Of a DNA stretch of 34,900 nt, positions 1,459 to 30,317 are shown one piece after another. The stretch lies in contig NZ_QQBI01000029.1 of NCBI RefSeq assembly GCF_004302915.1, positions 1-34,900 on the forward strand, written 5' to 3'. This DNA is from Komagataeibacter xylinus (GTDB taxonomy: Bacteria; Pseudomonadota; Alphaproteobacteria; Acetobacterales; Acetobacteraceae). Position 1 is the first letter of the stretch, and every line of letters begins with the position of its first letter. A program made the position numbers and the translations under genes. The notes under the pieces are model-generated. The model was not told where the DNA came from, ran no database searches, and saw only the letters and a program-made list of their open reading frames with translations.

Positions 1459-1497
1459 CCATTTCCTGACCAGCATAAAACCGTCACAGGTCCTCTT

Positions 1498-2931
1498 TCA
1501 GTCTCTTTCACCCGCAGTCACACCGTAATGGTCAGCAAAATGCGCGCCGTCTGCACCCCAACTATAACTGTCTTTCGGGAAAGGCAGCATCTGATCGTTC
1601 CATGCTACCCACGCCCGTTTCAATCTATCAAACAGTTGGGGCTGCCGATCCTTCAGGTTGGCGCGTTCACGCGGGTCATTGACGACATCGAACAGGAATT
1701 CATTTTCATTTATTTTCAGGTATTTGTAGTTGCCCTCCAACTGGGCGCGCTGGCTTTGGATCTTGTAACGCCATGACAGCGTGCGCTCCTGTCTGGCTGT
1801 CGTATCGTGCAGCAGGGGCAGCAGGTTCATGCCATCGGTTGGAAAACTAGCATCCGGGGTAGCCCCTGCCGCTGCAAGAAAGGTCGGTAGCCAATCCATG
1901 GTGATGATAGCCTGATCCGTCTCGGAACCCGACGCAACCTGTCCTGGCCAGCGTAGTACAGCGGGCACCCGCAGGCCGCCTTCCAGCAGTTCGCCTTTCA
2001 TGCCGGTAAAGGGCCAGGTGGCGGAGAAGCGTTCGCCCCCGTTATCACTGGTAAAGACGACGATCGTATTCTCATGCAGCCCGTTCTGGTCCAGCGCTGC
2101 CAGCACGCGCCCGATCTGTTCATCCATGGCCTGTACCATACGGCCATAGGTCTTCTGCGTGCCGCCATCATAATCGAATATGTGGCCCTTTAGCCGTTTT
2201 GATTCCGCCTCGTCCTCCGGTCCTTCCCATGGCCAGTGTGGCGCATTGAAATGCAGGCTCAGGAAAAACGGCTTTGGGCCCCTGCCATATTCATTAACCA
2301 CGGAAACGGCTTCATTTCCCAGTAACCGGGTCAGATAGCCATGTTCATGAACCAGCTGGCTGTCTTTATAGAACTGGTCCTCTCCGGGGTGGCCCTGATG
2401 TGTGAAGTAATCCGCAGCGCCGCCCGCTATGCCATAAAAGTGGTCATATCCACTCTTTAATGGCCCGAAGGCAGGAGGACTGCCCAGATGCCATTTGCCC
2501 ACCAGGGCGGTCCGGTAGCCTGCCCTGCGCAACTGTTCAGGCAGTGTTGGCAGCCCGGGGGGAAGCCCATGTGTCTTGCCAGCCGAAGCAATCGGCTCTT
2601 CCAGCCCGCAGGCGATCCTGTCCTGATAGCGACCTGTAATCAAAGCCGTGCGCGTAGCCGAGCAGACCGCTGAATTGGCATAGGCCCGCGTAATACGGAT
2701 CCCTTCACTGGCGATCCGGTCGATGGACGGGGTTGTGAAGCCAGGATTGCCGAAGCAACTGACATCAGCATAACCAAGGTCATCAGCCAGGATGAAAATG
2801 ATATTGGGCTGGCGATGTATGTCGGCCTGCGTAGCCTGCGCGTTGGACGATACCCCCAATGCGGTTCCCATACCCAATCCGGCGACGCCAGCCATAAATC
2901 CACGACGACTATATGTAAAATAAACCATCAA
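1498..2931 (-). CDS. Tat-exported type I sulfatase (arylsulfatase A type)
   Basis: A 477-residue sulfatase that hydrolyses sulfate esters, expected in the periplasm. A twin-arginine signal (SRRGFMAG, residues 8-15) precedes a hydrophobic stretch and an A-Q-A cleavage region. The alkaline-phosphatase-like core starts PNIIFILADDLGY, with the paired metal aspartates at 50-51. The active-site motif is C90-S-A-T-R94, a C-x-A-x-R variant of the usual C-x-P-S-R; Cys90 would be converted to formylglycine by the enzyme encoded at 6528-7529. A GKWHLG motif and the late metal site TSDNGG also fit. The gene is divergent from the arylsulfotransferase gene (166-base gap, likely shared promoter region). Its stop lies 40 bases from the end of the IS3 relic, which marks this gene as the island edge. 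The natural substrate cannot be told from sequence. Confidence 0.9.
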   Translation of the reverse strand: MMVYFTYSRRGFMAGVAGLGMGTALGVSSNAQATQADIHRQPNIIFILADDLGYADVSCFGNPGFTTPSIDRIASEGIRITRAYANSAVCSATRTALITGRYQDRIACGLEEPIASAGKTHGLPPGLPTLPEQLRRAGYRTALVGKWHLGSPPAFGPLKSGYDHFYGIAGGAADYFTHQGHPGEDQFYKDSQLVHEHGYLTRLLGNEAVSVVNEYGRGPKPFFLSLHFNAPHWPWEGPEDEAESKRLKGHIFDYDGGTQKTYGRMVQAMDEQIGRVLAALDQNGLHENTIVVFTSDNGGERFSATWPFTGMKGELLEGGLRVPAVLRWPGQVASGSETDQAIITMDWLPTFLAAAGATPDASFPTDGMNLLPLLHDTTARQERTLSWRYKIQSQRAQLEGNYKYLKINENEFLFDVVNDPRERANLKDRQPQLFDRLKRAWVAWNDQMLPFPKDSYSWGADGAHFADHYGVTAGERD

Positions 2932-3097
2932 ACTGATTCCACAATCACTATTTGTCTATATAACGATGTTTCATCACATAAACCACTATTCAACAAACGT
3001 AAATTGCATAATCATATAATCACAGCATATTCAGCGTGTATGCTTGCCAAAAATCAACGATACAAAATAGTGTAAATATCAGCGCAAGGGATATACA

Positions 3098-4456
3098 ATG
3101 TTCCCAATCCAACCCCTGCTTTCCCTGCTGGGTGGCAGTCTGCTGCTTGTTTGTGCGAGCGTTCCGGCCATGATGACCCGCGCCCACGCAACCCCCAGCG
3201 TATTCCCCACGGGGGTGACGCAATATGCGCCGGACAGAACCTATAACAGTTTCATTCTTTTTTCGGGTGCGGACAACCATACGCACCTGATCGACATGGA
3301 TGGTCATGAAGTCCATGCATGGCATCAGGCGGGATTTCCCTCCCGCTTTATCGATCCTGCCCTGTCGGGCGGTGAAAAAGGCCTGGTCGGAGTTCAGTTA
3401 ACGGAAATTGCGGGAGATGGCACGCACAAGATCCCGGGCGCGGTTGCCGGTTTTCGCGATCGTACGTTCGGGTATGTCAACTGGCAGGGCAAGACGGTAT
3501 GGGAATGGGGAATCGAGGCCCCCGGGGGGAATGCCCGTCAGCATCATGACTGGGTCAGGCTGCACGATGGTGGTTCGCTACTGCTTGCCAATCAGGACCG
3601 CCATCTTGCCGGTGCGCCCTCACCCGTGCTGGAGGATGTTATTTATGATGTGGCGGCGGACGGAAAAATCCGCTGGACATGGAAGGCAGGCGACCATCTG
3701 ACGGAATTCGGCTTTACGCCCGAACAGTTGAAACTTGTCCTGCATGCTCCCTCGCCAGATTATCTCCATATCAACAATATGCAGTTGGTAGGCGATAACC
3801 ACTGGTTCCGTGAAGGCGACACGCGCTTTGCGCCAGACAACATCATCATCGACTCCCGTCAGGCCAATTTCATAGCCATCATCGACCGCAAGAGTGGACG
3901 GATCGTATGGCGGCTTGGCCCGGACCTGCCCCAGCGTAACTTCAGGAAACCTTCCGTTCCCTATCCCGTGGACCAGTTTGTCGGCCAGCACGACGCACAT
4001 CTGATTGCCGATGGCCTGCCGGGCGCGGGCAACCTGCTTGTATTCGACAATCAGGGAGAAGCAGGCTACCCGCCCCGCCCCTTGCAGACGACCGGGGGAT
4101 CACGGATACTGGAAATCAATCCCGTTACGGCACAGGTGGTGTGGCAATATACCGGCGAGGATAGCGGCAATCCGCCATGGTCATTCTTCAGCAGCTTCAT
4201 CAGTTCGGTGGACCGCCTGCCCAATGGCAATACGCTGATTGACGAAGGCATGAATGGCCGGTTCTTCCAGGTGACACCAGCGGGGGACATCGTGTGGGAA
4301 TATGTCTCGCCTTTTTCTGGAAATACACCGTCCCAGGGTGGTACGCGGCCGACCCGGTCAAACTGGGTGTACCGTATCCAGCCCGTACCGTATGACTGGG
4401 CACCGGCGGGAACGCCACATACGCAAACCCCCGTCCGACCCGCAGCGCAGAAATAA
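3098..4456 (+). CDS. Arylsulfotransferase (ASST) family protein, exported
   Basis: A 452-residue protein with a Sec signal peptide (hydrophobic residues 6-23, likely cleaved after A-H-A near 31). The body has the repeated beta-propeller strands of PAPS-independent aryl-sulfate sulfotransferases: TYNSFILFS, HLIDMDGHEVHAWH, HHDWVRLHDGG, GQHDAHLIADG, NLLVFDNQG and DIVWEYVSPF. The family moves sulfate from an aryl sulfate ester to a phenol through a sulfated histidine in the periplasm. Which histidine does this here was not resolved. AAGGGA precedes the ATG by seven bases. The gene is divergent from one sulfatase and convergent with another, so an alternative fate for aryl sulfates (transfer instead of hydrolysis) is encoded among the sulfatases. 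Members vary in length and some have unknown acceptors. Confidence 0.8.
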   Translation: MFPIQPLLSLLGGSLLLVCASVPAMMTRAHATPSVFPTGVTQYAPDRTYNSFILFSGADNHTHLIDMDGHEVHAWHQAGFPSRFIDPALSGGEKGLVGVQLTEIAGDGTHKIPGAVAGFRDRTFGYVNWQGKTVWEWGIEAPGGNARQHHDWVRLHDGGSLLLANQDRHLAGAPSPVLEDVIYDVAADGKIRWTWKAGDHLTEFGFTPEQLKLVLHAPSPDYLHINNMQLVGDNHWFREGDTRFAPDNIIIDSRQANFIAIIDRKSGRIVWRLGPDLPQRNFRKPSVPYPVDQFVGQHDAHLIADGLPGAGNLLVFDNQGEAGYPPRPLQTTGGSRILEINPVTAQVVWQYTGEDSGNPPWSFFSSFISSVDRLPNGNTLIDEGMNGRFFQVTPAGDIVWEYVSPFSGNTPSQGGTRPTRSNWVYRIQPVPYDWAPAGTPHTQTPVRPAAQK

Positions 4457-4462
4457 TCCGGA

Positions 4463-4495
4463 GGCGGAAGGGACTGCCGGGCAGTCCCTTCCGCC
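4463..4495. terminator. Bidirectional hairpin between convergent genes
   Basis: A perfect inverted repeat (GGCGGAAGGGACTG with its exact complement, loop CCGGG) fills the 41-base gap between the arylsulfotransferase stop and the convergent sulfatase stop. There is no long T run on either side, so this is a strong stem that probably ends or stabilises both transcripts rather than a textbook intrinsic terminator. Confidence 0.75.
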
Positions 4496-4497
4496 CA

Positions 4498-6483
4498 TCA
4501 TATCTGCGGATCGCCTATCCTGCCGCCCATGGCCTTTAACAGCAGCTGCCCGACCGGTCCTTTCAGGGCGGCAGGAGACAGATTGACCGGCTCGGTCCGG
4601 CGCGGGTCGTACGTTCCGGCCTGCACGGATGCTAGATAGGTTGCCGCGGCATGCGCGGCGAACAGGTTCAGTACTTCATCCACGCTATGGGGAACGTGCT
4701 TTTCGGTCAGGACGGTGCGGACGGCAGCGCGCAGGCTGGCCGATCCCGTCTGCCGACCATAGGTCGCGGTTGTAAGGGCGGCGAGGCCTGCGACCGGATC
4801 ATCCGGGCTGGCAATGCTGCGTGCAAGCCAGGGCGTGGCATAGGCGGAGCGTTTTCCATCGAGCAGAATCTCGGCATGCACGGCCTTGATGACCGGCAGG
4901 GGTTCGGTCCGGAATGCGGCCTCCACTTCTGCTACCGTTGCGGCATCCAGTTGCGGACTCAGCACAAGCAGGCCCGTTGCGGCCCAGTAGCGGATTACAG
5001 GGTTGCTATCCTGCATCCGCTTTACAAACAGTGGAACACTGGCGGGGTCACGCGCAATGACCCGGGCGCTCAGTTCCAGCAGGTCGGATAATGGATAGGC
5101 GCCGACCGCGCGACTTTGCGCGTATCCTTCCATGCCCAGCCCTTCGATGAGGAAAGCATTGTCATTAAGGGCGATCATTTCCTGATCCAGCAGCCCGCGC
5201 AACGTGACCAGCACCGCCTGCTGGTCACGATGAGCTGCAAGATTATGGATCTGGTGGGGATCAGCCCTGATATCATATAGTTCTTCTGCCGGTTTTTCCC
5301 GCCAGAAGGCGGCCTGCAGGGTGTTCAGTCGACCTGCGCGCCATTCTTCTTCCCATGATTGATAGCCCCTGCCTCCCCATTCGTAGTTATTATGCTGCCC
5401 ATATATGCGGTGCGGCATGTAGTTGCGGATATAGCGGTACTGGCTGGTGCGGATGGAACGCATCAGATCCTGCCGTTCATCCATGCGGTTGCGTCCGCTG
5501 AATACGTACTGTCGTGCTGGCGCGATCTTGTGTCCGACAAACGCACGGCCCTGCATGACTGGTGGAACAGGTGCGCCGGCCAGTGAAAGGGTGGATGGCG
5601 CCAGATCAAGCAGACTGATGAGGTCCGCGCAGGGCCTGCCTGCTGGCCGGTGCGCCAGATGCCTGTATTTACGTGGAAAATAGGCGATGAACGGGACATG
5701 CAGGCCCCCATCGTAGCAATAGCGTTTGGTGCGTGGCAGTACGCCCCCGTGATCCGCCAGAAAGAAAATGACTGTATCCTCGGTCAGCCCATCCTGCCGC
5801 AACTCGTCAAGGATATGGGCAACCGCCTTGTCCTGCCGGTTTACCATATCAATATTCCGGGCAATCGCATCACGCACATCCGGTGTATCGGGCAGGTATG
5901 GTGGCACCGTAACGCTGTGTGGGTCCGTTATGGTGGGTGTTGTCTCGAACAGGTGGGATTCATGCGTGATCAGGTAATTATAGACCGAAAAAAACGGCCT
6001 GCCCTTCGGCCTGTTGCGCCAGTGCGCCGTAATCGAGCAGTCATCCCATATGGCCTGAGGGTCAAGGTCACAGTTATAATCGGTAAAGACATTATTGGTG
6101 CAGTAATATCCTGCCTGCTGCATATGTTCCGGCAGGCTTTGGATGTGTCCTGCCACCTTTGCTACGGCCCGCATGTTTTCTGCCGGCCCCCAGCTTTGCG
6201 GATGAATGCCCGTTATTAACGAGAACCGTGATGGCGCGCAGACAGGCGTCGTGGCATGGACGTTGTCAAAACGAATGCCGTCATGTGCAAGTGCATCAAT
6301 AGTGGGGGTGCGTGCCAGCGGATTGCCATAGCAGCCGATAAGGGGCGCATGAATGTCGTGACATACGATCCATATGATATTCGGCTTTCTTGCGGGCGTC
6401 GCGTATCCCTTTTTCGTGGTAAGGAGGGCTGTGCCCGCACCCGATGCCGCGGCAAGGACATGCCGTCGTCTTATGCTTTTCAT
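4498..6483 (-). CDS. Large type I sulfatase with C-terminal HEAT-like region
   Basis: A 661-residue sulfatase. The N-terminus (MKSIRRRHVLAAASGAG) looks like a Tat signal. The core begins PNIIWIVCHDIHAPLIGCYG, and the active-site motif is the canonical C82-A-P-S-R86, to be matured to formylglycine. The usual first metal aspartate pair (D-D) is H42-D43, as in the sulfatase groups with an E/H-D-I-S/H-P start, so metal binding may differ. A late metal motif, FFLADHGG, is present. Residues about 490-620 hold helical repeats (DSNPVIRYWAATGLLVL) like HEAT repeats and make it some 180 residues longer than its two relatives here. It is last in a minus-strand run: receptor, sulfatase, FGE, this gene (44 bases after FGE). 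Substrate unknown; N- and O-sulfate esters are both possible for such families. Confidence 0.88.
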   Translation of the reverse strand: MKSIRRRHVLAAASGAGTALLTTKKGYATPARKPNIIWIVCHDIHAPLIGCYGNPLARTPTIDALAHDGIRFDNVHATTPVCAPSRFSLITGIHPQSWGPAENMRAVAKVAGHIQSLPEHMQQAGYYCTNNVFTDYNCDLDPQAIWDDCSITAHWRNRPKGRPFFSVYNYLITHESHLFETTPTITDPHSVTVPPYLPDTPDVRDAIARNIDMVNRQDKAVAHILDELRQDGLTEDTVIFFLADHGGVLPRTKRYCYDGGLHVPFIAYFPRKYRHLAHRPAGRPCADLISLLDLAPSTLSLAGAPVPPVMQGRAFVGHKIAPARQYVFSGRNRMDERQDLMRSIRTSQYRYIRNYMPHRIYGQHNNYEWGGRGYQSWEEEWRAGRLNTLQAAFWREKPAEELYDIRADPHQIHNLAAHRDQQAVLVTLRGLLDQEMIALNDNAFLIEGLGMEGYAQSRAVGAYPLSDLLELSARVIARDPASVPLFVKRMQDSNPVIRYWAATGLLVLSPQLDAATVAEVEAAFRTEPLPVIKAVHAEILLDGKRSAYATPWLARSIASPDDPVAGLAALTTATYGRQTGSASLRAAVRTVLTEKHVPHSVDEVLNLFAAHAAATYLASVQAGTYDPRRTEPVNLSPAALKGPVGQLLLKAMGGRIGDPQI

Positions 6484-6527
6484 GACGATTTTTTTCTCTT
6501 TTTATGGATGGGGCCTGAATGGGCGCC

Positions 6528-7529
6528 CTATCGGTCGAATACGCAGCGAAAACCGATATGCGATGTGCTGCTGTCCGCTGTCGTACGCGTGCGGGCAGAC
6601 AGGCGGTAGCGGTTACAGTAACTGGCATGACACAGGAACGAGCCGCCACGGATCACATGTTCCGTGGTGGTGTCCGCCTGACCGGCAGGGCGGCCCGGGC
6701 TGCTTTTTACGGGCGGCAGGTCAGGACGCGCCGGATCGGTTGACCATGTATCCGTGCACCATTCCCATACGTTTCCCACGACTTCGTACAGGCCGAGCGT
6801 ATTAGGCGGAAAACTTTTAACCGGCGCGGTTCCCCGAAAGCCATCTTCGCCCAGGTCGATATCAGGAAAGACACCCTGCCAGATATTGCATAGATGCTGT
6901 CCCTGCGGCGTCAGTTCATTTCCCCATGGGTAAAGCCGGTCATCATCATGGCCGCCCCGTGCGGCTGCTTCCCACTCCGCCTCCCTTGGCAGGCGTCCGC
7001 CCGCCCAGGCGGCATAGGCGCACGCATCATGCCACGAAACATGCACGACGGGATGGTCCGGCCGCGCGGCCACATGTGATCCCCGGCCCTCAGGGTGCCG
7101 CCAGCATGCCGTTTTCAACGGTACCCACCATGGCACCCCCGGCACCTGGCCGGACCGGATAAGGCGTCGCGCCCGGGCCGGTACGAAAAGAGAGAACACA
7201 AATGACCAGCCATACCGCTCCGCATCCGTGACATATCTCGTTGCGGACACAAAGCGGGCAAACTCCCGATTGGTGACGGTAGTCGTCATGATGGAGAAAG
7301 CATCCAGCGTTACATGCCTGACAGGTCCCTCGGCATCAGCACGATGGGCTTCGGGGCTTTCGCTGCCGATACGGTAATGTCCCGGAGGGAGCCGTACGAT
7401 CTCATGCCCCCCGGCAGCACCTGTTCCTGTCGCCAGTCCGGTAGTGCCAGCCTGCGCGGCGGCCTCCCCGGCGCTGTCCCGCGCCATGGCGGGCACGCAG
7501 CATGATTTCTTTATGTGGTTATCCTGCAT
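6528..7529 (-). CDS. Formylglycine-generating enzyme (sulfatase-activating, SUMF1/EgtB-fold)
   Basis: A 333-residue FGE-sulfatase domain protein. It oxidises the cysteine of C-x-P/A-x-R motifs in unfolded sulfatases to C-alpha-formylglycine with O2 and copper. No signal peptide is seen, so it should act in the cytoplasm before export, which agrees with the Tat signals on the neighbouring sulfatases. Visible family marks are PPGHYRIGS, PVVHVSWHDACAYAAWAGG, RLPREAEWEAAARGG, YPWGNE, VGNVWEWC and the C-terminal RGGSFLCHASYCNRYR. The last carries the two active-site cysteines C300 and C305, spaced as in human SUMF1. These cysteines separate true FGEs from other family members. The first 40 residues are a low-complexity Ala/Gly stretch. 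The gene lies 13 bases after one sulfatase and 44 bases before another, so the three are likely co-transcribed. Confidence 0.93.
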   Translation of the reverse strand: MQDNHIKKSCCVPAMARDSAGEAAAQAGTTGLATGTGAAGGHEIVRLPPGHYRIGSESPEAHRADAEGPVRHVTLDAFSIMTTTVTNREFARFVSATRYVTDAERYGWSFVFSLFVPARARRLIRSGQVPGVPWWVPLKTACWRHPEGRGSHVAARPDHPVVHVSWHDACAYAAWAGGRLPREAEWEAAARGGHDDDRLYPWGNELTPQGQHLCNIWQGVFPDIDLGEDGFRGTAPVKSFPPNTLGLYEVVGNVWEWCTDTWSTDPARPDLPPVKSSPGRPAGQADTTTEHVIRGGSFLCHASYCNRYRLSARTRTTADSSTSHIGFRCVFDR

Positions 7530-7542
7530 TGATAGGCCCCGC

Positions 7543-8961
7543 CTATATATATTCAGGCGAAGAAACCCGACCTGTCATAAAATACTGTTGAAACCCGGAT
7601 ACAATGTCGGGATGGTGGTGCGCGATATCCTGGCTTTCCGATGGATCGGTCTCAAGGTCATACAGCGCGATGTTGCTGGTTTTCACCGGTCGGACCGCTT
7701 TCCATCTTCCCTTGCGGGCCGCCTGCCAGAAGGAGGGCTCATAAGTCTCCCAGTAAAGGAAACGCTCGGGCATGGGGTTCTGGTGCAACAGGGCCGGTGT
7801 CAGGTCAATTCCGTTCACATCGTGCAGGGAGGGACCAGCGTTCCCGGAAAGGGTAAGCGCGGTCGGCAGGAAATCCGGATGATAGGCAGGAACAGAACTT
7901 ATGCTGCCTGCCGGGATATGGCCGGGCCATGACACAAGCAGGGGCACACGCAGGCCACCTTCATACAGATCCCGCTTGTAGCCACGCAGGTTGCCGTGGG
8001 AATTGAAGAATTCGGCAACTTCCGTCTGTTCTGCCGTCGGTTCGGAGCGCGGACCATGATCGGAGGAAAAAAAGATAATGGTATCATCACGCAGTCCGGT
8101 CGCTGTAAGGGTTTCCAGGATATTCCCTACCCCGTCATCCAGAAAGCCGATCATTGCCGCGTAATTTTTTTCATATTCGCCCCACGGCATACCGGCATAA
8201 CGCGCCTGAGTGGGCGTGACATGCGGGCTGTGAGGCGCATTGTAGGCAACTGTCAGGAAAAAGGGCCTGTCACGCGAATGTCGGATATACTCACACGCCT
8301 GCGCGGTGCAGATATCTGTCTCATAGACCGCCTGATGGCCATTTTCATTATCCGCTATGGCATGCAGTGTCGTGCCGTCATACCAACGTGTCGGGAAATA
8401 TCCCTGTGTTGCTTCAGTCTGGGTCAGCCAGCCATGGAATTCATCAAAACCATGACTGGTCGGAACCGCTTCACGATCATATCCATCCAGATGCCACTTC
8501 CCTACCAGCGCCGTGGCGTAACCACCTTGCCGCAGGTATGACGCAACTGTCTTTTCATGCGGTCGCAGTCCCATGCGGCGCACCTGTTCGTGGCCCCGCC
8601 ATCCAACCCGGCCGCCCTGCAGCGCAAAATTGTCCCGTATGGTTGCATGCCCCATGTCCTTTCCGGTCATGAGTGCGCAGCGTGAGGGAGAACAGACGGG
8701 CGCCCCCCCGTAGGCTGCGTCAAAGCGCATGCCGGATGCTGCCAGTGCATCAATGTTGGGTGTATGGATTTTTGTCTGTCCGTAACATCCCAGATCATGA
8801 ACGCCCAAGTCATCGGCAATGATATAGATGATATTGGGGCGGGCCAGCGTTGGGATACGGTCTTCGTGTGCATATGCCCCTTTGCGCAGGAATGATGTCA
8901 CCATTCCTGCCGCAGTAGCACCCAGCAGGGCGCGTCTGCCAATACTGAAATCTGTTTTCAT
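7543..8961 (-). CDS. Tat-exported type I sulfatase (arylsulfatase)
   Basis: A 472-residue sulfatase from the ATG at 8961. A GTG four codons earlier at 8973 is possible, but GGGA then lies inside the coding region at good spacing for the ATG. A Tat signal (IGRRALLGATAAG) leads to a core starting RPNIIYIIADDLGVHDLGC with both metal aspartates. The formylglycine site is C-S-P-S-R (cysteine about residue 90), followed by the family's LMTGK. GKWHLDGYD and SSDHGPRSE complete the active-site set. It hydrolyses sulfate monoesters in the periplasm; the exact substrate is unknown. It follows the TonB-dependent receptor by 45 bases and precedes FGE by 13, which places uptake, hydrolysis and activation in one probable operon. 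Confidence 0.9.
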   Translation of the reverse strand: MKTDFSIGRRALLGATAAGMVTSFLRKGAYAHEDRIPTLARPNIIYIIADDLGVHDLGCYGQTKIHTPNIDALAASGMRFDAAYGGAPVCSPSRCALMTGKDMGHATIRDNFALQGGRVGWRGHEQVRRMGLRPHEKTVASYLRQGGYATALVGKWHLDGYDREAVPTSHGFDEFHGWLTQTEATQGYFPTRWYDGTTLHAIADNENGHQAVYETDICTAQACEYIRHSRDRPFFLTVAYNAPHSPHVTPTQARYAGMPWGEYEKNYAAMIGFLDDGVGNILETLTATGLRDDTIIFFSSDHGPRSEPTAEQTEVAEFFNSHGNLRGYKRDLYEGGLRVPLLVSWPGHIPAGSISSVPAYHPDFLPTALTLSGNAGPSLHDVNGIDLTPALLHQNPMPERFLYWETYEPSFWQAARKGRWKAVRPVKTSNIALYDLETDPSESQDIAHHHPDIVSGFQQYFMTGRVSSPEYI

Positions 8962-9006
8962 GATTGGTCCCACATATATGGAATATATTTTTATTTTATA
9001 ATGACT

Positions 9007-11749: not shown

Positions 11750-12667
11750 TCAATCCGCTGGCAGGGCCCGGCTGGAACGACCGTCCAGGCTGACCGGTAC
11801 ATCGCCCCTGACCGTAACACGCCGGACAATCCTGGGCTGGCTGCCGTAGTCGTCAACCGCCCGGTGCTGCGTTGCCTGGTTATCCCAGATGGCAATATCC
11901 CCTTCAGACCATTTCCAACGGACCGTATTGTCAAGACTGGTGATGTGTGACTGGAAAATCTCGAAGAGATGGCGGCTGTCAGGCGCATTCAGGCCATCGA
12001 ATTTCTGGAAGAAATGACCAAGCACGAGATTGGCCTCGCCCGTAACCGGATGCCTGCGCACCACCGGGTGCAAGGTGCGGTAAGCGGTGGATGTAAAGAC
12101 CCGATGGTACTCACGCGCGGAGTCCGGCACATGGCTCCGGCGGGCGGCATAATCATGGTTGTTTGTATGGATGGCCCAGAGCTGGTCTGCCAGGTTCCGC
12201 AGCGGAAGCGGCAGGTCATTGTAAGCGGTGGCAGTATTGGCCCAGACCGTATCCCCTCCAACGACCGGTATGACGACCCCGCGCAGAATGGATATTTTCG
12301 GATAATCGGGCACGAAAGTAACGTCTGTATGCCAGCTTGCCGCGCGGGTCCCGCGCGCGCTGTCCAGATCCAGTATCCCACTCGTTCCCTTCAGTGAAGG
12401 TACGGTCGGGTGCGGCACAAGATCCCCGAAGCGGCGCCCCAGCGCTTCCTGTCCGTTTTCATCCAGGTGCTGCTGCCCGCGGAAGAAAATCACCTTGTGC
12501 TTGTACAGCAGGTCTTCGATATGACTGAAGATCCCTGAAGGCAGGTCCGCCGACAGGCGGACACCCTCGATCACGGCACCAATCCGGCCGGCAAGAGGCG
12601 TTACGCTCAGCTGGGCGCTCTGCGAATCACTATTTTCCGAAGTGGTACCGAATCCGATTCTCGACAT
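11750..12667 (-). CDS. atsK: Fe(II)/2-oxoglutarate dioxygenase, AtsK/TauD type (alkylsulfatase)
   Basis: A 305-residue TauD/TfdA-family enzyme. Family members hydroxylate the carbon next to a sulfate ester or sulfonate with O2 and 2-oxoglutarate, releasing sulfate or sulfite in the cytoplasm. From the chosen start, the iron ligands are H113-x-D115 (in SWHTDVTF) and H268 (in QHRAVDDYG). The 2-oxoglutarate arginine is R279, 11 residues after the last histidine as in AtsK. GGDTVWANTATAYNDLP and DQLWAIHTNNHDYA resemble AtsK more than TauD. The start was taken at 12667 because AGGAG stands eight bases before it; the ATG at 12676 is only three bases from AGGAG. No export signal. The gene is divergent from the ABC importer at 13085, which would supply its substrate. 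Taurine or another sulfonate as substrate is not excluded. Confidence 0.82.
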   Translation of the reverse strand: MSRIGFGTTSENSDSQSAQLSVTPLAGRIGAVIEGVRLSADLPSGIFSHIEDLLYKHKVIFFRGQQHLDENGQEALGRRFGDLVPHPTVPSLKGTSGILDLDSARGTRAASWHTDVTFVPDYPKISILRGVVIPVVGGDTVWANTATAYNDLPLPLRNLADQLWAIHTNNHDYAARRSHVPDSAREYHRVFTSTAYRTLHPVVRRHPVTGEANLVLGHFFQKFDGLNAPDSRHLFEIFQSHITSLDNTVRWKWSEGDIAIWDNQATQHRAVDDYGSQPRIVRRVTVRGDVPVSLDGRSSRALPAD

Positions 12668-12788
12668 TTCATTCACTCCTTATGGTGATTAACCCTGGCA
12701 TACGATGAAATTCCGGTCAATTAATTACGCTATAAAGAGTCATAATAAATTAACCACGTATTTGTGAGTCATTTATGGAGCGGGAATG

Positions 12789-12812
12789 GCCTGCGTGGAA
12801 AAGCACGCAGGC
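12789..12812. repeat. Perfect inverted repeat in the divergent control region
   Basis: GCCTGCGTG and its exact complement CACGCAGGC are separated by a six-base loop (GAAAAG). A strong stem would form in a transcript reading toward the ABC operon. No T run follows, so it is not a simple terminator. It may be a leader structure or a decayed mobile-element end. Confidence 0.6.
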
Positions 12813-12854
12813 GTGAAGTCCTCCGTTGGGCTTCATCCTAACTTAATTCGTCAT

Positions 12855-12880
12855 AAATAACTGTTTTATAATGGTTATTT
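12855..12880 (+). promoter_or_regulatory. Candidate promoter and operator for the sulfate-ester ABC operon
   Basis: The 408-base gap between the divergent dioxygenase and ABC genes contains an exact TATAAT at 12867-12872. It is flanked by the inverted repeat AAATAAC (12855-12861) and GTTATTT (12874-12880). A dyad over the -10 box is what a repressor or LysR-type site could look like. The -35 element is weak, and the distance to the ATG (13085) would leave a leader of about 200 bases. Two direct GAGTCAT repeats lie upstream (near 12737 and 12767). The rest of the gap shows no gene I can support. Confidence 0.35.
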
Positions 12881-13084
12881 CCAGGAGTTGATTTACGAGC
12901 CCTACTCCTTCCGGGCTGACATCAGCCATTTTCTGACGAGTCTGTACCGGATTAAGTGGCATTAAACACTTTGAATTTTGGTGCATAACAATTTCCACGA
13001 ATCGGGATATGTAAATTTCATTGACACTTTCTGTTTGATTAAACTAACAACGATTTCAGAGAGTGGTTTTCGGAGTATGCACTC

Positions 13085-13882
13085 ATGTCCGACATCGTTT
13101 TTCAGTCCGTCTGCAAAATTTTTCCCGCCGTCCCTGCCCGCAAGGGAGAAAGGGATTACACGGTCCTGCATGACGTTTCCCTCAACATTCGGGCTGGTGA
13201 GTTCATGTGCCTTGTCGGACCCAGCGGATGCGGGAAATCGACCCTGCTTGATCTGATGGCGGGGCTTGATTTTCCGACTGACGGAACGATTCTCATCGAT
13301 GGCGAACCCATAAAGGGCCCCGCCGCCAGCCGCAGCGTCGTATTCCAGCAATATGCCCTCATGCCGTGGCTTTCGGCCCTGCAGAACGTGGAATTCGCTC
13401 TGGAAGCAGCAGGGGTGCCACGGAACAGGCGCCGTGAGCGGGCGCTGGCCTATCTGCGGCTGGTTGGCCTGTCTGATTTCGCGCATCGTCGGCCTGACCA
13501 GCTTTCAGGCGGCATGAAACAGCGCGTCGCGATTGCCCGCAGCCTTTCTGTCGAGCCGCGGGTGCTGCTGATGGACGAGCCCTTTGGCGCGCTGGATGCC
13601 CAGACACGCGAGGGCCTGCAGGATGAACTTCTGCGTCTGTGGCACCAGTCCCGGCAGACCATCGTATTCATAACGCACGATATTGATGAGGCACTGTATC
13701 TGGGCCAACGGGTTGCCATCATGACCCGTAATCCCGGCCACATTGCCGAAATCATTGATGTCCCTTTCTCGGCCCGCCGCATGGAGACGAATGTGCGTCG
13801 CCTGCCTGAATTCAGCGCCCTGCGCCACCAGATCTGGCGGAAACTCAAGCCTGATGCCTTACCGCCCGGTACCTATCATTAA
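13085..13882 (+). CDS. ABC transporter ATPase, sulfonate/sulfate-ester (SsuB/TauB/AtsC) type
   Basis: A 265-residue ATPase energising import across the inner membrane. Walker A is GPSGCGKST (45-53), the Q-loop lies in VVFQQYALMPW, the signature is LSGGMKQR (140-147), Walker B is LLMDEPFGALD and the switch histidine is in THDIDEA. The PWLSALQNVEF segment and the NPGHIAEI stretch near the C-terminus are typical of the nitrate/sulfonate/taurine subfamily. GGAG precedes the ATG. The permease gene follows after 11 bases and the binding protein overlaps that, so these form one transcription unit. Sulfate esters as cargo follow from the divergent dioxygenase and surrounding sulfatases, as with atsRBC of P. 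putida; sulfonates or taurine remain possible. Confidence 0.88.
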   Translation: MSDIVFQSVCKIFPAVPARKGERDYTVLHDVSLNIRAGEFMCLVGPSGCGKSTLLDLMAGLDFPTDGTILIDGEPIKGPAASRSVVFQQYALMPWLSALQNVEFALEAAGVPRNRRRERALAYLRLVGLSDFAHRRPDQLSGGMKQRVAIARSLSVEPRVLLMDEPFGALDAQTREGLQDELLRLWHQSRQTIVFITHDIDEALYLGQRVAIMTRNPGHIAEIIDVPFSARRMETNVRRLPEFSALRHQIWRKLKPDALPPGTYH

Positions 13883-13893
13883 GGACGTGTTCC

Positions 13894-14745
13894 ATGTCTT
13901 CCCCGGCCCAGACATTTACTGCTTCTTCCAGGTCCGTGCAGGCGCAGGCCCGTGATGCTGGCGCAATGGCGCGAAGGTCAGTGCAGATAACGGCGCAACT
14001 GCTCAAGTACACGCTGGCCCCGGCACTGTTTGTGCTGACATGGGAAATGCTGCCTCGGCTGGGTATCGTAAACCCGGTTTTCTTTCCGCCCTTTTCGCGG
14101 GTTGCGCAGGCCGGGTGGCATCTTACCGTAACGGGTGTCCTGCCACGTAACGCCTGTGCCAGCATCATGCGCGCGGTTACGGGTCTATGTCTTGCAACTG
14201 TTATTGCCGTGCCGCTGGGCATGCTGATCAGCGCCAGCCGTACCGTGTCCGACATGCTTTCCCCCCTGCTGGAGGCATTTCGCAATACAGCCCCACTGGC
14301 GCTGCTTCCGGTCATTACGCTTGTGCTCGGTATTGGTGAGGTCTCCAAGGTAACCATGGTGGTTTATGCCGCGTTCTGGCCCATACTGCTTAACACCATA
14401 TCTGGTGTCCGGGGGGTTGATCCCGTCATTATCAAGGCCGGACGCGCAATGGGCCTGTCGCCTGCCAACCTGCTGCTGCGCATCACACTGCCAGCAACGT
14501 TGCCCACCATCTTTACCGGGGTGCGTCTTGCGCTGGCCGCAACATTTCTCGTGCTCATTGCGGCGGAAATGGTCGGTGCGCGTGCCGGGTTGGGATATTA
14601 CCTCAATGTAGCACAGGCCAATTTCCAGATTCCTGAAATGTATGCCGGGATTCTGGCGCTTTCCGGATTGGGCCTCCTGTCGAACGGACTGCTGTTCTGG
14701 GCGGGCGTCCGGTTGCGGATTGTACAATGGAGAAACGTGAAGTGA
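13894..14745 (+). CDS. ABC transporter permease, sulfonate/sulfate-ester (SsuC/TauC/AtsB) type
   Basis: A 283-residue inner-membrane permease of the nitrate/sulfonate/taurine subfamily, with about six hydrophobic segments. The cytoplasmic EAA loop reads IIKAGRAMGLSPANLLLRITLP, with the conserved glycine, and would dock onto the neighbouring ATPase. The first 30 residues are hydrophilic. AAGGA stands eight bases before the ATG. The gene lies 11 bases behind the ATPase gene and overlaps the binding-protein gene by 4 bases if that starts at its GTG, so translation is probably coupled. Confidence 0.88.
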   Translation: MSSPAQTFTASSRSVQAQARDAGAMARRSVQITAQLLKYTLAPALFVLTWEMLPRLGIVNPVFFPPFSRVAQAGWHLTVTGVLPRNACASIMRAVTGLCLATVIAVPLGMLISASRTVSDMLSPLLEAFRNTAPLALLPVITLVLGIGEVSKVTMVVYAAFWPILLNTISGVRGVDPVIIKAGRAMGLSPANLLLRITLPATLPTIFTGVRLALAATFLVLIAAEMVGARAGLGYYLNVAQANFQIPEMYAGILALSGLGLLSNGLLFWAGVRLRIVQWRNVK

Positions 14746-15734
14746 TCGGTCGTCGTCTTTTTCTGGGCGGCGCGACTGCGGGGCTGCTGGTGCCGTCCGT
14801 GCATGCCAGGGCGGATGAAGCCCTGCGCACGCCGCTACGCTATCAGGGGTGGCCGGGGCGTGTCTCCTTTCCCGAACTGGCGCAGGATCTTGGCTACATG
14901 GGGCCGGTCAGGCTCGAATGGGTAGGCAACACCATAAGTGGCCCGCAGGACATACAGGCAGTGATCACCCGCGATGTGGATTTTGGCCTGGCCTTTAACG
15001 GGGCGGTCCTGAAAATGATTGCATACGGTGCCCCGGCCCGCGCCGTTATCGCTGCATCTGGCGCAACGCAGGCGGAATCCGCCGAACTGTTTGTGCTGCA
15101 AAGCAGCCCGATATCCAGCGCATCTGGCCTGCGCGGGCGGAGTGTTGGCGTCAATGTGGTCGGAGCGGAACTGGAGGTCAGCCTCGACCATTATCTGCAG
15201 AAGGCGGGACTGGGCAATGTGGATGATGCCGGGATAACCCTGGTGCCGCTCCCCCCGGTCGCCATGGAAGGGGCGCTGCGCATGGGCCGGATCGATGCCG
15301 CATTCACGGCGCCACCATGGGGGGACATGCTGCGGACACGGGGTGGCGTCAGGTCGGTTTTTTCGGAATATGATGTCTATGGCGACCAGATCATGTCCAC
15401 CTATGTCATGCGCGATACTTTCCTGCAAAAGTACCCACGCACGGCGCGATATTTCATATCCGGCACGGCCCGCGCGATTGAATGGGCACGCAGCGCACCG
15501 AGGCAGGAGGTGATTGCCCGGGCCAAGGCAATCGTCAGCACACGCGGCCGTGGTGAGAACACATCGCCACTGGATTACTGGAAAACACCCGGAATCCCTA
15601 CGCAGGGCGGAATGCTTACGGAGCGTTCCTTTACTGTATTTCAGGACTGGTACGTAAAAAATGGCAGCCCTGAATTGAAGGAAATAAATATAAATAAAAT
15701 ATATGACAATAGTTTCAACTGTTACGACACCTGA
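14742..15734 (+). CDS. Tat-exported substrate-binding protein, sulfonate/sulfate-ester ABC system
   Basis: A periplasmic binding protein of the SsuA/TauA/NMT1-like fold, about 330 residues. It begins with a twin-arginine signal (IGRRLFLGGATAG) ending near V-H-A-R-A-D. The fold is seen in RYQGWPGRVSFPELA, VDFGLAFNGAVL, GLRGRSVGVNV and RIDAAFTAPPWGD. I chose the GTG at 14742: it overlaps the permease stop as GTGA and has GGAG nine bases before. The ATG at 14727 would give a 19-base overlap and has no clear ribosome site. Export through Tat rather than Sec is unusual for this class and suggests folding or cofactor binding before export. It completes the ATPase-permease-binder set. Confidence 0.83.
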   Translation: MIGRRLFLGGATAGLLVPSVHARADEALRTPLRYQGWPGRVSFPELAQDLGYMGPVRLEWVGNTISGPQDIQAVITRDVDFGLAFNGAVLKMIAYGAPARAVIAASGATQAESAELFVLQSSPISSASGLRGRSVGVNVVGAELEVSLDHYLQKAGLGNVDDAGITLVPLPPVAMEGALRMGRIDAAFTAPPWGDMLRTRGGVRSVFSEYDVYGDQIMSTYVMRDTFLQKYPRTARYFISGTARAIEWARSAPRQEVIARAKAIVSTRGRGENTSPLDYWKTPGIPTQGGMLTERSFTVFQDWYVKNGSPELKEININKIYDNSFNCYDT

Positions 15735-15791
15735 TTTTCTTCTCCATCATGCTGCCTGGCACCTTTTGTAATAAGGTATGAAAAATTGGTC

Positions 15792-16811
15792 ATGACACGA
15801 TCAACCACCCGCCGTAGCCTTTTCAGGGCATCTCTTGGCGCCGGAGCGGCCATGGCGCTCCGTCCGGTACGGGCATGGGCCGCCACCGGCCTGCTGAATG
15901 TATCCTACGATCCGACACGGGAGCTCTATCAGGACATTGACCGCAGCTTTTCCGCCGCATGGGCGCGGCAGCATGTAGGCGCACCGGTACAGATCCGTAC
16001 TTCCCATGGCGGCTCAGGCGCACAGGCCCGCTCCGTGCTGGAAGGCGCGCCCGCCGATATCGTGACCCTTGGCCTGGCCTATGATATCGACATCCTGGCC
16101 CAGAACGGCCTGCTCGCGCCGGACTGGCAAAAGCGCCTGCCCCATAATTCCACCCCGTTTACCAGCACGATCGTGTTCCTGGTGCGCAAGGGTAACCCGA
16201 AGAACATTCACGACTGGCCAGACCTGATCCGTGATGATGTGCAGGTCATCACGCCCAACCCCAAAACGTCCGGCGGGGCCCGATGGAACTATCTTGCCGC
16301 ATGGGGATGGGCGCTGCGCCAGCCCGGCGGCACACCCGATAAGGCGCGTGATTACCTGAAAACCCTGTTTGCCCATGTGCCGGTGCTTGATACCGGCGCG
16401 CGCGGCGCCACCAACAGCTTTGTCCAGCGCGGGCTGGGAGATGTACTGCTGGCGTGGGAGGACGAGGCCCTTCTGGCCACGCGCGACATCGGGCCGGACA
16501 AATTCGATATTGTCGTGCCTCCCCTGACCATTCTGGCCGAGCCTCCTGTCGCGGTTGTCGACCGCAACGTGAAGGCCCACGGCACGGCGGAAATCGCTCA
16601 GGCCTATGTGGAATACCTGTTCAGCGAGGAAGGGCAGAAGATCGGGGGGAAACACTATTTCCGGCCCGTAAACCCGACCATTCTGGCGGCCTTCCATGAC
16701 CGCTTCGCCACGACCGATACCTTTGATATCGCAAGTCTTGGCGGGTGGGGCACGGTGCAGAAACAGCATTTTGCCGATGGCGGCATATTCGACAGTATTT
16801 ACACGAAATGA
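15792..16811 (+). CDS. sbp: Sulfate-binding protein (Sbp/CysP type), Tat signal
   Basis: A 339-residue periplasmic sulfate-binding protein. A signal with paired arginines (TRRSLFRASLGAG) precedes LLNVSYDPTRELYQDID, the typical mature N-terminus of Sbp/CysP. TSHGGSGAQARSVLEG and PNPKTSGGARWNYLAAWGW are sulfate-contacting segments of this family. It delivers sulfate to the CysT/CysW channel encoded next. The start is uncertain: the TTG at 15786 is nine bases after AAGG, while the ATG at 15792 is 15 bases after it. It follows the sulfate-ester binding protein by 57 bases and overlaps cysT by four bases (ATGA), so the two import systems may be one operon. Confidence 0.9.
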   Translation: MTRSTTRRSLFRASLGAGAAMALRPVRAWAATGLLNVSYDPTRELYQDIDRSFSAAWARQHVGAPVQIRTSHGGSGAQARSVLEGAPADIVTLGLAYDIDILAQNGLLAPDWQKRLPHNSTPFTSTIVFLVRKGNPKNIHDWPDLIRDDVQVITPNPKTSGGARWNYLAAWGWALRQPGGTPDKARDYLKTLFAHVPVLDTGARGATNSFVQRGLGDVLLAWEDEALLATRDIGPDKFDIVVPPLTILAEPPVAVVDRNVKAHGTAEIAQAYVEYLFSEEGQKIGGKHYFRPVNPTILAAFHDRFATTDTFDIASLGGWGTVQKQHFADGGIFDSIYTK

Positions 16812-17674
16812 CGGCATATCTTTCACGCCGGCTGGGGCTGCCGCGCAGGCAGCGCGATCCCCTGCCCGGCTTCGGGCTGGGGCTGGGGCTGACACTGTTC
16901 TGGCTTGGCACGCTTGTGCTCCTGCCGCTGCTGGCGCTGGTATCGCGCCCGTGGCAAGAGGGGCTGCATCGTGGCCTGCTCGCCTTTGCCCATGCGGCAC
17001 ATGATGGGCGGATACTGTCCGCCCTGTGGGTCAGCTTCGGTTCCGCCGTTCTTGCGGCCCTGTTCGACCTGGTGCCTGGCGTGCTGATTGCCTGGGCGCT
17101 TGTGCGTAGCGATATTCCCGGCCGGCGCATTATCGACATGCTGGTGGAACTGCCCTTTGCCCTGCCCACCGCCGTGGTAGGGATCACCATGGCCACGCTA
17201 TATGGCCCGACAGGCTGGTTCGGCGCGCCGCTGGCCAGGCTGGGAGTGCACATTGCCTATAGCCGGACCGGCATCGTGCTCGCCCTCATGTTTATCGGGC
17301 TGCCCTTTATCGTGCGGACCGTCGCACCGGTTCTGCGCAACCTGCCAGCCGATGTGGAAGAAGCCGCCGCGATATTGGGGGCCAGCCGTGCGCAGGTTCT
17401 GCTGCGTATCGTGCTGCCTGCGCTCCATCCCGCGCTGGTTACGGCATTCGGCATGGCCTTTGCCCGTGGCATCGGGGAATATGGTTCGGTTATCTTCATA
17501 GCGGGCAACCAGCCCTTCCATACCGAAATCGCACCCCTGCTGGTTGTCATCCGCCTGCAGGAGTATGACACGACGGGCGCGACCCTGATCGGGTTCGTGC
17601 TTGTTGCGGTCTCGCTGCTGTCCCTTGCCGGCATAAGCCTTGTCCGCCGCCGGCTGTCCCGTGGCGTCGGGTAA
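16808..17674 (+). CDS. cysT: Sulfate ABC transporter permease CysT (CysU)
   Basis: A 288-residue permease with about six membrane segments. It forms half of the sulfate channel. ELPFALPTAVVGITMATLYG and the EAA loop (EEAAAILGASRAQVLLRIVLP) are diagnostic, and VIFIAGNQPFHTEIAPLLV is typical of CysT. The ATG at 16808 overlaps the sbp stop as ATGA; the open frame extends further upstream to 16745, but that part overlaps sbp and has no signal. The CysW gene follows after 13 bases. Confidence 0.92.
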   Translation: MTAYLSRRLGLPRRQRDPLPGFGLGLGLTLFWLGTLVLLPLLALVSRPWQEGLHRGLLAFAHAAHDGRILSALWVSFGSAVLAALFDLVPGVLIAWALVRSDIPGRRIIDMLVELPFALPTAVVGITMATLYGPTGWFGAPLARLGVHIAYSRTGIVLALMFIGLPFIVRTVAPVLRNLPADVEEAAAILGASRAQVLLRIVLPALHPALVTAFGMAFARGIGEYGSVIFIAGNQPFHTEIAPLLVVIRLQEYDTTGATLIGFVLVAVSLLSLAGISLVRRRLSRGVG

Positions 17675-17687
17675 GGAAGGGATCACG

Positions 17688-18491
17688 ATGTCACGTATCG
17701 TATATGCGCTCGTCATCTACCTGCTGGTTACGGTCATGATCGTCCTGCCGCCGCTACTGGTGGTGGTCATGGCGCTGTCACATGGGCTGGGGGCGGCGAT
17801 CGAAAGCCTGGCCGATCCCGATGCGCTGTCCGCAATCCGGCTTACGGTCATCATCACGGTGCTGACCGTGTGCATCAACACGGTTTTTGGCGTGATGGCG
17901 GCATGGACGTTGACGCATTTCCGTTTTCCCGGCCGGAACCTGCTGGTCGTGCTGGTTGAACTGCCCCTGAGCGTCTCCCCTGTCGTCGGTGGCCTGATCT
18001 GGCTTCTCGTATTCGGGACACAGGGATGGTGGGGCGCCGCACTGGAACGCTGGGGCTATCCCGTCATGTTCGCACCGCCCGGCATCCTGCTGGCCACGCT
18101 GTTTGTCACGTTTCCCTATGTTACGCGCACGCTTATGCCCATGCTGGCCCATAACGGTCGCGCGGCGGAGGAAGCGGCCGTCCTGCTGGGTGCCAGCCTG
18201 TGGCAGGTGTTGTGGCATGTCACGCTGCCTGGTGCGCGACTGGCGCTGGTTTCGGGCATGCTGCTGGCAACCGCGCGCGCCATGGGCGAATTCGGTGCGG
18301 TTTCGGTCGTATCGGGCCATATTCCCGGCCTGACCGAAACCATGCCGCTGCATATCGAGACCCTGTACAATGGCTACCAGACGGTAGCCGCCTTCACCAT
18401 GGCGACCCTGCTGGCCCTGATGGCAATGATTGTCGTGCTGGTCCGCAGCCTTATCGAACGCCGCCTTGACCGGACGGAACCAAGCATATGA
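17688..18491 (+). CDS. cysW: Sulfate ABC transporter permease CysW
   Basis: A 267-residue permease, partner of CysT. It begins MSRIVYALVIYLLVTVMIV. The segments VELPLSVSPVVGGLIWLLVFG, EEAAVLLGASLWQVLWHVTLP (EAA loop) and EFGAVSVVSGHIPG are those of CysW. The start at 17688 has AAGGAAGG seven bases ahead; the longer frame from 17640 lies inside cysT. The stop overlaps the cysA start as ATGA. Confidence 0.92.
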   Translation: MSRIVYALVIYLLVTVMIVLPPLLVVVMALSHGLGAAIESLADPDALSAIRLTVIITVLTVCINTVFGVMAAWTLTHFRFPGRNLLVVLVELPLSVSPVVGGLIWLLVFGTQGWWGAALERWGYPVMFAPPGILLATLFVTFPYVTRTLMPMLAHNGRAAEEAAVLLGASLWQVLWHVTLPGARLALVSGMLLATARAMGEFGAVSVVSGHIPGLTETMPLHIETLYNGYQTVAAFTMATLLALMAMIVVLVRSLIERRLDRTEPSI

Positions 18492-19600
18492 GCGTATATC
18501 TGGACCATATCACCCGCCACAGCCCGCAGGGCGGCCGCGCGATTGTGGATGATGTGTCATTGAGCGTGAAGGATGGCAGCTTTACCGCGCTTGTCGGCCC
18601 GTCGGGCGCGGGCAAGACTTCCCTGCTGCGTATCATTGCGGGACTTGATCCACACCAGCGTGGACAGGTGTCGATTGACGGCAGGCGTGTGGATACGCTG
18701 GGCGCGCGTGAGCGCAACATCGGCTTCGTCTTCCAGCATTATGCCCTGTTTGCGCATATGACGGTGGCGGCCAATATCGGGTTTGGCCTTGCCATCCGCC
18801 CCCGCCACAGCCGCCCCGGCAGGGCTGCGATCCGCCGCCGGGTGGAAGAACTGCTTGAACTCATGCAACTGCCCGCAATGGGGGCACGCTATCCGCATGA
18901 ACTTTCAGGGGGGCAGCGCCAACGCGTCGCCCTTGCCCGCGCACTGGCCACGGGGCCACGTGTATTGCTGCTGGATGAACCCTTTGGCGCGCTTGACCCG
19001 CTGGTGCGCAGGCAGATACGCGGCTGGCTGCACAACCTGCACGAACGGCTGGGCCTGACCACCATTCTCGTAACGCACGACCGGCAGGAAGCTGCCGAAC
19101 TGGCCGATACCGTCGTCATCATGAACCGGGGGCGCGTCGTGCAGTCAGGCACCCCGCAGGAACTGGAAGACAACCCGGCCGATCCCTTCGTCATGGATTT
19201 CAGCGGCGAGACCATCCGTATTGCCGGTCTGGTCACCAATGGTCGTTTCGTGCCGGACATGTCTGATATCATTCCTGTTCCCGTGGCACTTTCCAATGGC
19301 AGGGCCGAGATCCTGATCCGTCCAGCCGATATCCGCCTGCTGCCCCACCAAGGAAATGCCATCGCACAATTTTACCAGCGGCGTGGTCTGGTTGCCTCCT
19401 ATAAAGTGACATCGGCATCGTTCGACGGCATGCTGGTTGAAATGCCTGCGGACCCGGGTGATGTATCAGCGTCCATCATAACACACTGCGCCATTGATAT
19501 ATCCGCAGGTCGTTTCGTGCGGGACAACGCATGGGTCATTCCGGGTTATGGTTTGGTTGGTCCTGTAATTTCCGATGAAGTACAGTTCCTGTATTCATAA
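18488..19600 (+). CDS. cysA: Sulfate ABC transporter ATPase CysA
   Basis: A 370-residue ATPase of the sulfate/molybdate group. Walker A is GPSGAGKTS (37-45), then VFQHYALFAHMTV (Q-loop), LSGGQRQR (about 138), Walker B LLLDEPFGALDPL and the switch in THDRQEAAELAD. The C-terminal 130 residues form the regulatory TOBE-like domain usual in CysA (ILIRPADIRLLP). The ATG overlaps cysW by four bases. It is the last gene of the plus-strand run, and no clear terminator is seen behind it. Confidence 0.92.
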   Translation: MSVYLDHITRHSPQGGRAIVDDVSLSVKDGSFTALVGPSGAGKTSLLRIIAGLDPHQRGQVSIDGRRVDTLGARERNIGFVFQHYALFAHMTVAANIGFGLAIRPRHSRPGRAAIRRRVEELLELMQLPAMGARYPHELSGGQRQRVALARALATGPRVLLLDEPFGALDPLVRRQIRGWLHNLHERLGLTTILVTHDRQEAAELADTVVIMNRGRVVQSGTPQELEDNPADPFVMDFSGETIRIAGLVTNGRFVPDMSDIIPVPVALSNGRAEILIRPADIRLLPHQGNAIAQFYQRRGLVASYKVTSASFDGMLVEMPADPGDVSASIITHCAIDISAGRFVRDNAWVIPGYGLVGPVISDEVQFLYS

Positions 19601-23296: not shown

Positions 23297-23328
23297 GGTC
23301 GGGTCTCACGGGCGGACGGTTGGCGTTA

Positions 23329-23347: not shown

Positions 23348-23472
23348 CGCGTATATCCATGTCCGTTGAGACGATTTATTTTTAACGTGTGGGTGAAACT
23401 TTTTTTAGCGGTCCGCTGAAAAAAAGCGCTGCGCTGGCAGTTGTGCGTGGTCTGATTGCCCGTGTGGGCACC

Positions 23473-30307: not shown

Positions 30308-30317
30308 GGAGGTGAAG

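Follow-up and report, generated by a model that had tools for sequence, protein, structure and literature searches.

Comparison with described sulfate-ester systems

In Pseudomonas putida S-313, the genes sftP, atsRBC and atsK are reportedly joined for the use of alkyl sulfates. The cluster of Pseudomonas sp. UW4, as given in the available extract of its description (PMC3596284), has the order atsACBR-sftR-atsK-sftP and runs from an arylsulfatase to a TonB receptor. A block of 14 sulfur genes in Komagataeibacter xylinus resembles these clusters and is probably a horizontally assembled sulfur-scavenging island. The block lies between positions 1498 and 19600 of contig NZ_QQBI01000029.1 (assembly GCF_004302915.1; 3.63 Mb in 101 contigs), which was analyzed over its whole length of 34,900 bp (the window). 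All 14 genes were confirmed with the open reading frame (ORF) list, Pfam and NCBIfam (Table 1).

As in S-313 and UW4, an ABC importer, AtsK and a TonB receptor stand together, in UW4 with an arylsulfatase; the block holds an AtsK-type dioxygenase with its HxD...H residues, an adjoining SsuABC-like importer and an adjoining TonB receptor. The UW4 and S-313 proteins were compared by description, as was the receptor with SftP, except for the solved AtsK. UW4, in the same extract, has a LysR regulator (SftR) and one AtsA, whereas the block has no SftR and three twin-arginine sulfatases (S1, S2 and S3). The block adds a formylglycine-generating enzyme (FGE), an arylsulfotransferase (ASST), a sulfate importer (Sbp-CysTWA) and flanking insertion sequence (IS) remnants. 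SftR is treated here as a variable part of such systems that does not define their chemistry. A previous sequence-only reading of this DNA had drawn the analogy with P. putida, and rightly so, given the AtsK score and the conserved core neighborhood described below and the similar UW4 cluster. The same reading knew of no such combined cluster in acetic acid bacteria. No sulfatase/AtsK cluster in these bacteria was found among the papers listed by literature searches (titles and starts of abstracts, with few subscription journals), but an arylsulfatase with importer, atsK and sftP is already in print for UW4. Neither "sulfatase" nor "sulfonate" occurs in the available part of PMC9628956, which deals with sulfate assimilation in Komagataeibacter.

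The receptor-AtsK-importer core

Among solved structures, the best match of the dioxygenase is AtsK itself (1oih, 383 bits), compared with 287.5 bits for the Rv3406 alkyl sulfatase and 173 bits for TauD (1gqw). Residues H116, D118 and H271, which we take to be the Fe ligands, align with the HxD...H of the solved relatives. At the level of sequence, these comparisons support an AtsK-like rather than a TauD-like enzyme. AtsK is reviewed in PMC3920027 and the Rv3406 alkyl sulfatase is treated in PMC3675115 (both available as extracts). Sulfonate systems of the TauD/SsuABC type have the importer families and the dioxygenase superfamily in common with the block, and the best NCBIfam models for the two proteins are taurine dioxygenase and the SsuA family, both below their cut-offs. 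It is nevertheless highly improbable that the importer and the dioxygenase act on taurine or alkanesulfonates, since the dioxygenase falls on the AtsK branch, with a score far above that to TauD, and the pair is surrounded by sulfatases, FGE and the sulfate importer.

Family models give the receptor and the SsuABC-like importer no substrate; both are tied to AtsK and a sulfatase because their neighborhood is conserved in other Acetobacteraceae. In a family sample of 299 genomes, the K. xylinus genome included, matches to FGE were found in 52 (E≤1e-40), to AtsK in 22 (1e-60), to the receptor in 14 (E≤1e-60) and to the SsuA-like protein in 7 (1e-40). Receptors with 55–70% identity occur in four other genomes (G123, G131, G054 and G101); ssuB, ssuC and ssuA adjoin the receptor in all four, AtsK lies beside it in three (G131, G054 and G101) and an S1 ortholog is present in two (G131 and G054). 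The SsuA-like protein was found in six other genomes, with AtsK beside it in four (G131, G054, G101 and G271) and a receptor in four. The clusters of G131 and G054 consist of the same protein families (receptor 55–56%, AtsK 55% and S1 70–73% identical by tblastn), but contain one sulfatase and no ASST or CysTWA match in a 20-kb stretch. The other nine receptor genomes show 30–38% identity; stretches were taken from three of them (G060, G080 and G145), and in G080 two remote relatives of S1 lie close to the receptor.

A similar arrangement is found on plasmids, where 221 records had a match to the SsuA-like protein. A TauD-family dioxygenase lies within 5 kb in six of seven loci chosen from 20 listed, four of which are 49–59% identical to AtsK (three from Bradyrhizobium, 58–59%, and one from Streptomyces, 49%; Pseudonocardia, 35%; Paraburkholderia, 29%). 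At the seventh, from Paenibacillus cellulosilyticus, none was found within this distance. The receptor-AtsK-importer core is conserved in other genera. Among the loci viewed, no other one held all 14 genes together.

On a Sphingobium plasmid (L139:14794-19591), a receptor (37%) is followed by an MFS gene and then by an AtsK relative (52%). An Azotobacter locus was rejected as an SftP-like neighborhood: its receptor (29%) has genes for an SsuA-type protein and an LLM oxidoreductase as neighbors, and there was no AtsK match.

Sulfatases and their maturation

S1, S2 and S3 each combine PF00884 with a cysteine in the type I sulfatase motif C-x-P/A-x-R. S1 has alanine where proline is canonical, and alanine is tolerated at this third place. 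Twin-arginine N-termini, called by pattern match (Sec-type and no-signal calls were made by eye), were found on all three sulfatases and also on both solute-binding proteins (SsuA-like and Sbp). FGE matches the solved bacterial FGE 6s07 with 357.7 bits and 5nxl likewise with about 358 bits (residues 41–332); the full domain is present, and both active cysteines align with the same cysteines of the solved FGEs. The three sulfatases with twin-arginine translocation (Tat) signals and the true FGE of the sequence-only reading were thereby confirmed. Cytoplasmic formylglycine modification followed by Tat export is established logic, which Tat-signal sulfatases together with a signal-less FGE fit. 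The clustering is not due to chance, since the only other PF00884 protein above cut-off in the assembly is located on a different contig (by eye, it has no CxPxR-type motif).

The nearest solved relatives are a kappa-carrageenan sulfatase (6prm) for S1, a GalNAc-6-sulfatase (7ana) for S3 and the S1_8C sulfatase 9bba, substrate not given, for S2 (aligned along residues 29–448). With carbohydrate sulfatases nearest to S1 and S3, alkyl and aryl esters would be the natural guess for AtsK and ASST, not for S1–S3. The same relatives would suit a system in which the receptor and S1–S3 strip sulfates from host or environmental sugars mainly for carbon, with AtsK and the Ssu importer as a separate neighbor. 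One block of a Novosphingobium pentaromativorans plasmid (L225:565-13421) combines a TonB receptor and a GH3 enzyme with four genes annotated as sulfatases, and one of these sulfatases is 41% identical to S2. However, none of the 14 genes encodes a glycoside hydrolase, a lyase or a sugar transporter, a sugar ABC cluster being located further right, outside the block; and in G054 and G131, the one S1 ortholog observed overlaps the SsuA-like gene, beside ssuB, ssuC and AtsK. Glycan desulfation is therefore an unlikely explanation of the block.

The S1 orthologs of G131 (100% complete) and G054 (99% complete) carry the CSATR motif and begin within the last 4 nt of the ssuA gene (L199:6083-8508 and L200:10599-13024). 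A genome-wide profile search found no PF03781 protein in either genome and no anSME above the cut-off (349.45 bits; one match of 51.9 bits in G054 and none in G131). For the choline sulfatase of S. meliloti, turnover without formylglycine has been reported, with low activity (extract of PMC6189696), so that an unmodified cysteine or an unknown route is thinkable for these orthologs; a missed maturase is thinkable as well. The two orthologs represent a sharp test case for the maturation of Cys-type sulfatases.

The arylsulfotransferase

ASST was aligned to the PAPS (3'-phosphoadenosine-5'-phosphosulfate)-independent E. coli AssT (3elq) through a six-sequence profile with HMMER. The active site of AssT, according to the available part of PMC13426309, comprises His252, His356, Asn358, Arg374, His436 (catalytic, sulfated) and Thr501. 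His252, Arg374 and His436 have counterparts in ASST (H150, R254 and H298), with a weak overall match (profile E 3.3e-5). His356 and Asn358 correspond to H224 and N226 by the HINN motif only and were not aligned by HMMER. ASST differs at Thr501, which falls on Ile368 (Ile in all six sequences). As ASST transfers sulfate and does not release it, its place in scavenging is not obvious.

Seven ASST loci were viewed of 13 records, with flanks of 3 to 20 kb, so that absence of a gene is local. In Methylosinus and Halomontanus, an annotated arylsulfatase lies within 5 kb. On a Paenibacillus cellulositrophicus plasmid (L221:2992-7040), the ASST relative overlaps an operon for a binding protein, an ATPase and a permease. 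This relative has no signal peptide by eye, which suggests that sulfuryl transfer is coupled to import. The overlap may point to a physiological function of PAPS-independent sulfotransferases; none is stated in the available part of PMC13426309.

A tentative and rather doubtful extension is that the S1-type (CSATR) branch works without FGE or anSME, by an unmodified cysteine or an undescribed maturation, that the FGE of the block was added for S2 and S3, and that ASST may relay sulfuryl groups from aryl sulfates that cannot be imported to esters that SsuABC and AtsK can handle.

Organization and proposed route

On the minus strand, AtsK is followed by receptor-S3-FGE-S2 with gaps of 33, 13 and 44 nt. 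On the plus strand, divergent from AtsK across 408 bp, the order is ssuB-ssuC-ssuA-Sbp-CysT-CysW-CysA, where ssuC/ssuA, Sbp/CysT and CysW/CysA overlap and 51 nt separate ssuA from Sbp; genes within each run may be co-transcribed. At the left end of the block, the S1 and ASST genes point away from each other. The 408-bp region is a possible shared control region; the promoter/terminator scan found no promoter-like sites in it. The block may be controlled by sulfate starvation via a host regulator. Rfam (gathering threshold) and tRNA scans gave no matches.

Table 1. Positions in the window of the 14 sulfur genes, the divergent intergenic region and the flanking IS3-family remnants.
Feature	Position	Strand	Evidence and remarks
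Left IS3-family remnant, internally deleted, ~600 bp	891..1495	+	transpos_IS3 3.7e-25, below cut-off
S1 type I sulfatase	1498..2931	-	PF00884 3e-61; Cys90 in motif CSATR; twin-arginine N-terminus
ASST arylsulfotransferase	3098..4456	+	PF05935 8.7e-23; Sec-type N-terminus by eye
S2 type I sulfatase	4498..6483	-	PF00884 6.7e-36; Cys82 in motif CAPSR; twin-arginine N-terminus; long C-terminal part
FGE formylglycine-generating enzyme	6528..7529	-	PF03781 1.1e-77; Cys300/Cys305; no signal peptide by eye
S3 type I sulfatase	7543..8973	-	PF00884 3.5e-60; Cys94 in motif CSPSR; twin-arginine N-terminus
TonB-dependent receptor, sftP-like position	9007..11451	-	PF00593/PF07715
AtsK Fe(II)/2-oxoglutarate sulfate-ester dioxygenase	11750..12676	-	TauD-family 4.6e-57; H116-x-D118, H271
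Divergent intergenic region, 408 bp	12677..13084		between AtsK and SsuB-like genes
SsuB/AtsC-like ABC ATPase	13085..13882	+	Pfam, NCBIfam, conserved neighborhood
SsuC/AtsB-like permease	13894..14745	+	Pfam, NCBIfam, conserved neighborhood
SsuA/AtsR-like solute-binding protein	14727..15734	+	Pfam, NCBIfam; twin-arginine N-terminus
Sbp sulfate-binding protein	15786..16811	+	NF008022 436.5 bits, cut-off 288
CysT permease	16808..17674	+	likely ATG 16808, overlaps Sbp stop; listed frame starts GTG 16745
CysW permease	17688..18491	+	likely ATG 17688; listed frame starts TTG 17640
CysA ATPase	18488..19600	+	best rank against CysA models (NCBIfam), below their cut-offs
Right IS3-family remnant, 165 bp, 3' end of same IS type	20527..20692	+	80% to Acetobacter plasmid copy

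The four members of the Sbp-CysTWA family set are present in order. Sbp scores above its NCBIfam cut-offs and CysT above the CysT equivalog TIGR02139, whereas CysW exceeds a subfamily cut-off only (313.5 bits vs 329.1 for TIGR02140). Both importers named in the sequence-only reading are present, with CysA and the CysW equivalog below curated cut-offs, as are the arylsulfotransferase, the TonB receptor and the AtsK/TauD-type dioxygenase (Pfam matches).

In the scavenging reading, the TonB receptor would carry organic sulfate esters over the outer membrane and the SsuABC-like importer would take small esters into the cytoplasm, where AtsK would oxidize them to aldehyde and sulfate. S1–S3 would be made in the cytoplasm, have their active-site cysteine turned into formylglycine by the co-encoded FGE, leave folded via Tat and hydrolyze esters in the periplasm, probably including sugar or other bulky esters that cannot be imported whole. 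Sbp-CysTWA, whose genes follow those of the SsuABC-like importer, would then take up the freed sulfate. ASST would pass sulfuryl groups on from aryl sulfates to acceptor molecules and might supply either route. A Pseudomonas-type system could thus gain an additional periplasmic arm for hydrolysis, together with a maturase of its own and a sulfate importer, and one block would then give a route from the outer membrane to cytoplasmic sulfate, every step of which, as claimed before, appears to be covered by the gene set.

That the block is also self-contained, as the sequence-only reading had it, does not hold, and its interpretation is partly supported overall: a Pfam scan of the block found neither a regulator nor TonB/ExbBD among the 14 genes, and a SulP-family permease scored above cut-off in all 19 genomes of the genus sample, the K. 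xylinus genome included (G135 has only a weaker type). The SulP family also holds transporters of other anions. With these matches, CysTWA is unlikely to be the only entry of sulfate.

Distribution and origin of the block

The gene set is not conserved across the genus. S3 was absent from all 18 other genomes of the genus sample (1e-20), FGE was absent from the six other genus genomes of the family sample (E≤1e-40), and AtsK was found in 2 of the 18 (1e-40), namely G254 (two copies, 57% and 47%) and G299 (35%), neither with a receptor or importer match in the 16- to 20-kb stretches viewed. The two loci of G254 (L140 and L141) have no importer or receptor match within ~10 kb. CysT was found in 7 of the 18. 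As far as sampled, the sulfatase arm would be a strain- or species-level acquisition. Relatives of S1–S3 occur in 47 and relatives of both SsuB and SsuC in 12 of 80 FGE loci, the best of 163 related stretches in named genomes (flank at most 10 kb a side). New here is a block of this kind, with S3 and FGE so distributed, between two IS3-family remnants.

The two remnants bracket positions 1498–19600 in the same orientation and are the sole two matches in the assembly, a count to be taken with caution since draft assemblies often miss repeated IS copies. The left one contains a perfect 18-bp inverted pair (902–919 and 1467–1484), and two pieces of it match an IS of an Acetobacter plasmid with 83% and 89% identity. 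These remnants support the view that the block was assembled between IS elements; no intact composite transposon is claimed. The GC content of the block is 0.576, compared with 0.614 on its right side. At third codon positions (GC3), Sbp-CysTWA (0.66–0.76) is nearer the right flank than the other block genes (0.57–0.67). The top-ranked plasmid DNA matches are from Komagataeibacter saccharivorans (cysTWA, 78%; FoxA-FecR-FecI, 87%), both on one 221,732-bp plasmid and ~24 kb apart. Among the matches listed, those above 95% identity are few and short (77 bp at the start of the contig and ~40-bp pieces of ABC genes).

Several observations weigh against a jointly acquired and jointly acting set. Relatives of the receptor, AtsK, SsuA, Sbp, CysT, CysW and ASST were found in none of the 80 FGE loci, some of which are cut by contig ends, and the SsuABC-like importer adjoins ASST in one of the seven loci viewed (P. 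cellulositrophicus). G123 has a receptor-importer pair without adjacent AtsK, and G143 an importer without adjacent AtsK or receptor; both have AtsK-like genes elsewhere in the genome. The search for a regulator, limited to the block, found none, and the promoter/terminator scan was at chance level against shuffles (14 vs 12.9 and 17 vs 17.2). CysTWA may be dispensable given the SulP-family permeases, and the GC3 values indicate that Sbp-CysTWA may have a separate origin. The two IS copies, both truncated and sharing 72% identity, do not demonstrate one composite-transposon event.

An IS-rich accessory region that gathered sulfur genes by chance, without joint function or regulation, would explain the differences in GC3, the IS remnants on both sides and the unequal counts of FGE, AtsK, receptor and SsuA-like matches across the family. 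Such a patchwork is very unlikely, however, as the receptor-S3-FGE-S2 genes are tightly packed on one strand, FGE sits between two likely substrates, and the receptor-AtsK-importer neighborhood recurs in other genera, twice with S1.

Flanking regions

The first 77 nucleotides of the window match an IS5 transposase region on a plasmid of Komagataeibacter nataicola (98.7% identity), so this end of the contig is probably an IS. A 162-residue ORF beside the left IS3 remnant (64–552) has no Pfam or NCBIfam match. To the right of the block, a FoxA-like siderophore receptor is encoded with FecR and FecI (20786–25074). Further downstream (27080–34825), an FGGY kinase, a sugar-type ABC importer, an SDR dehydrogenase and a ribose-5-phosphate isomerase A-like gene form a cluster that resembles one for pentose or polyol catabolism.

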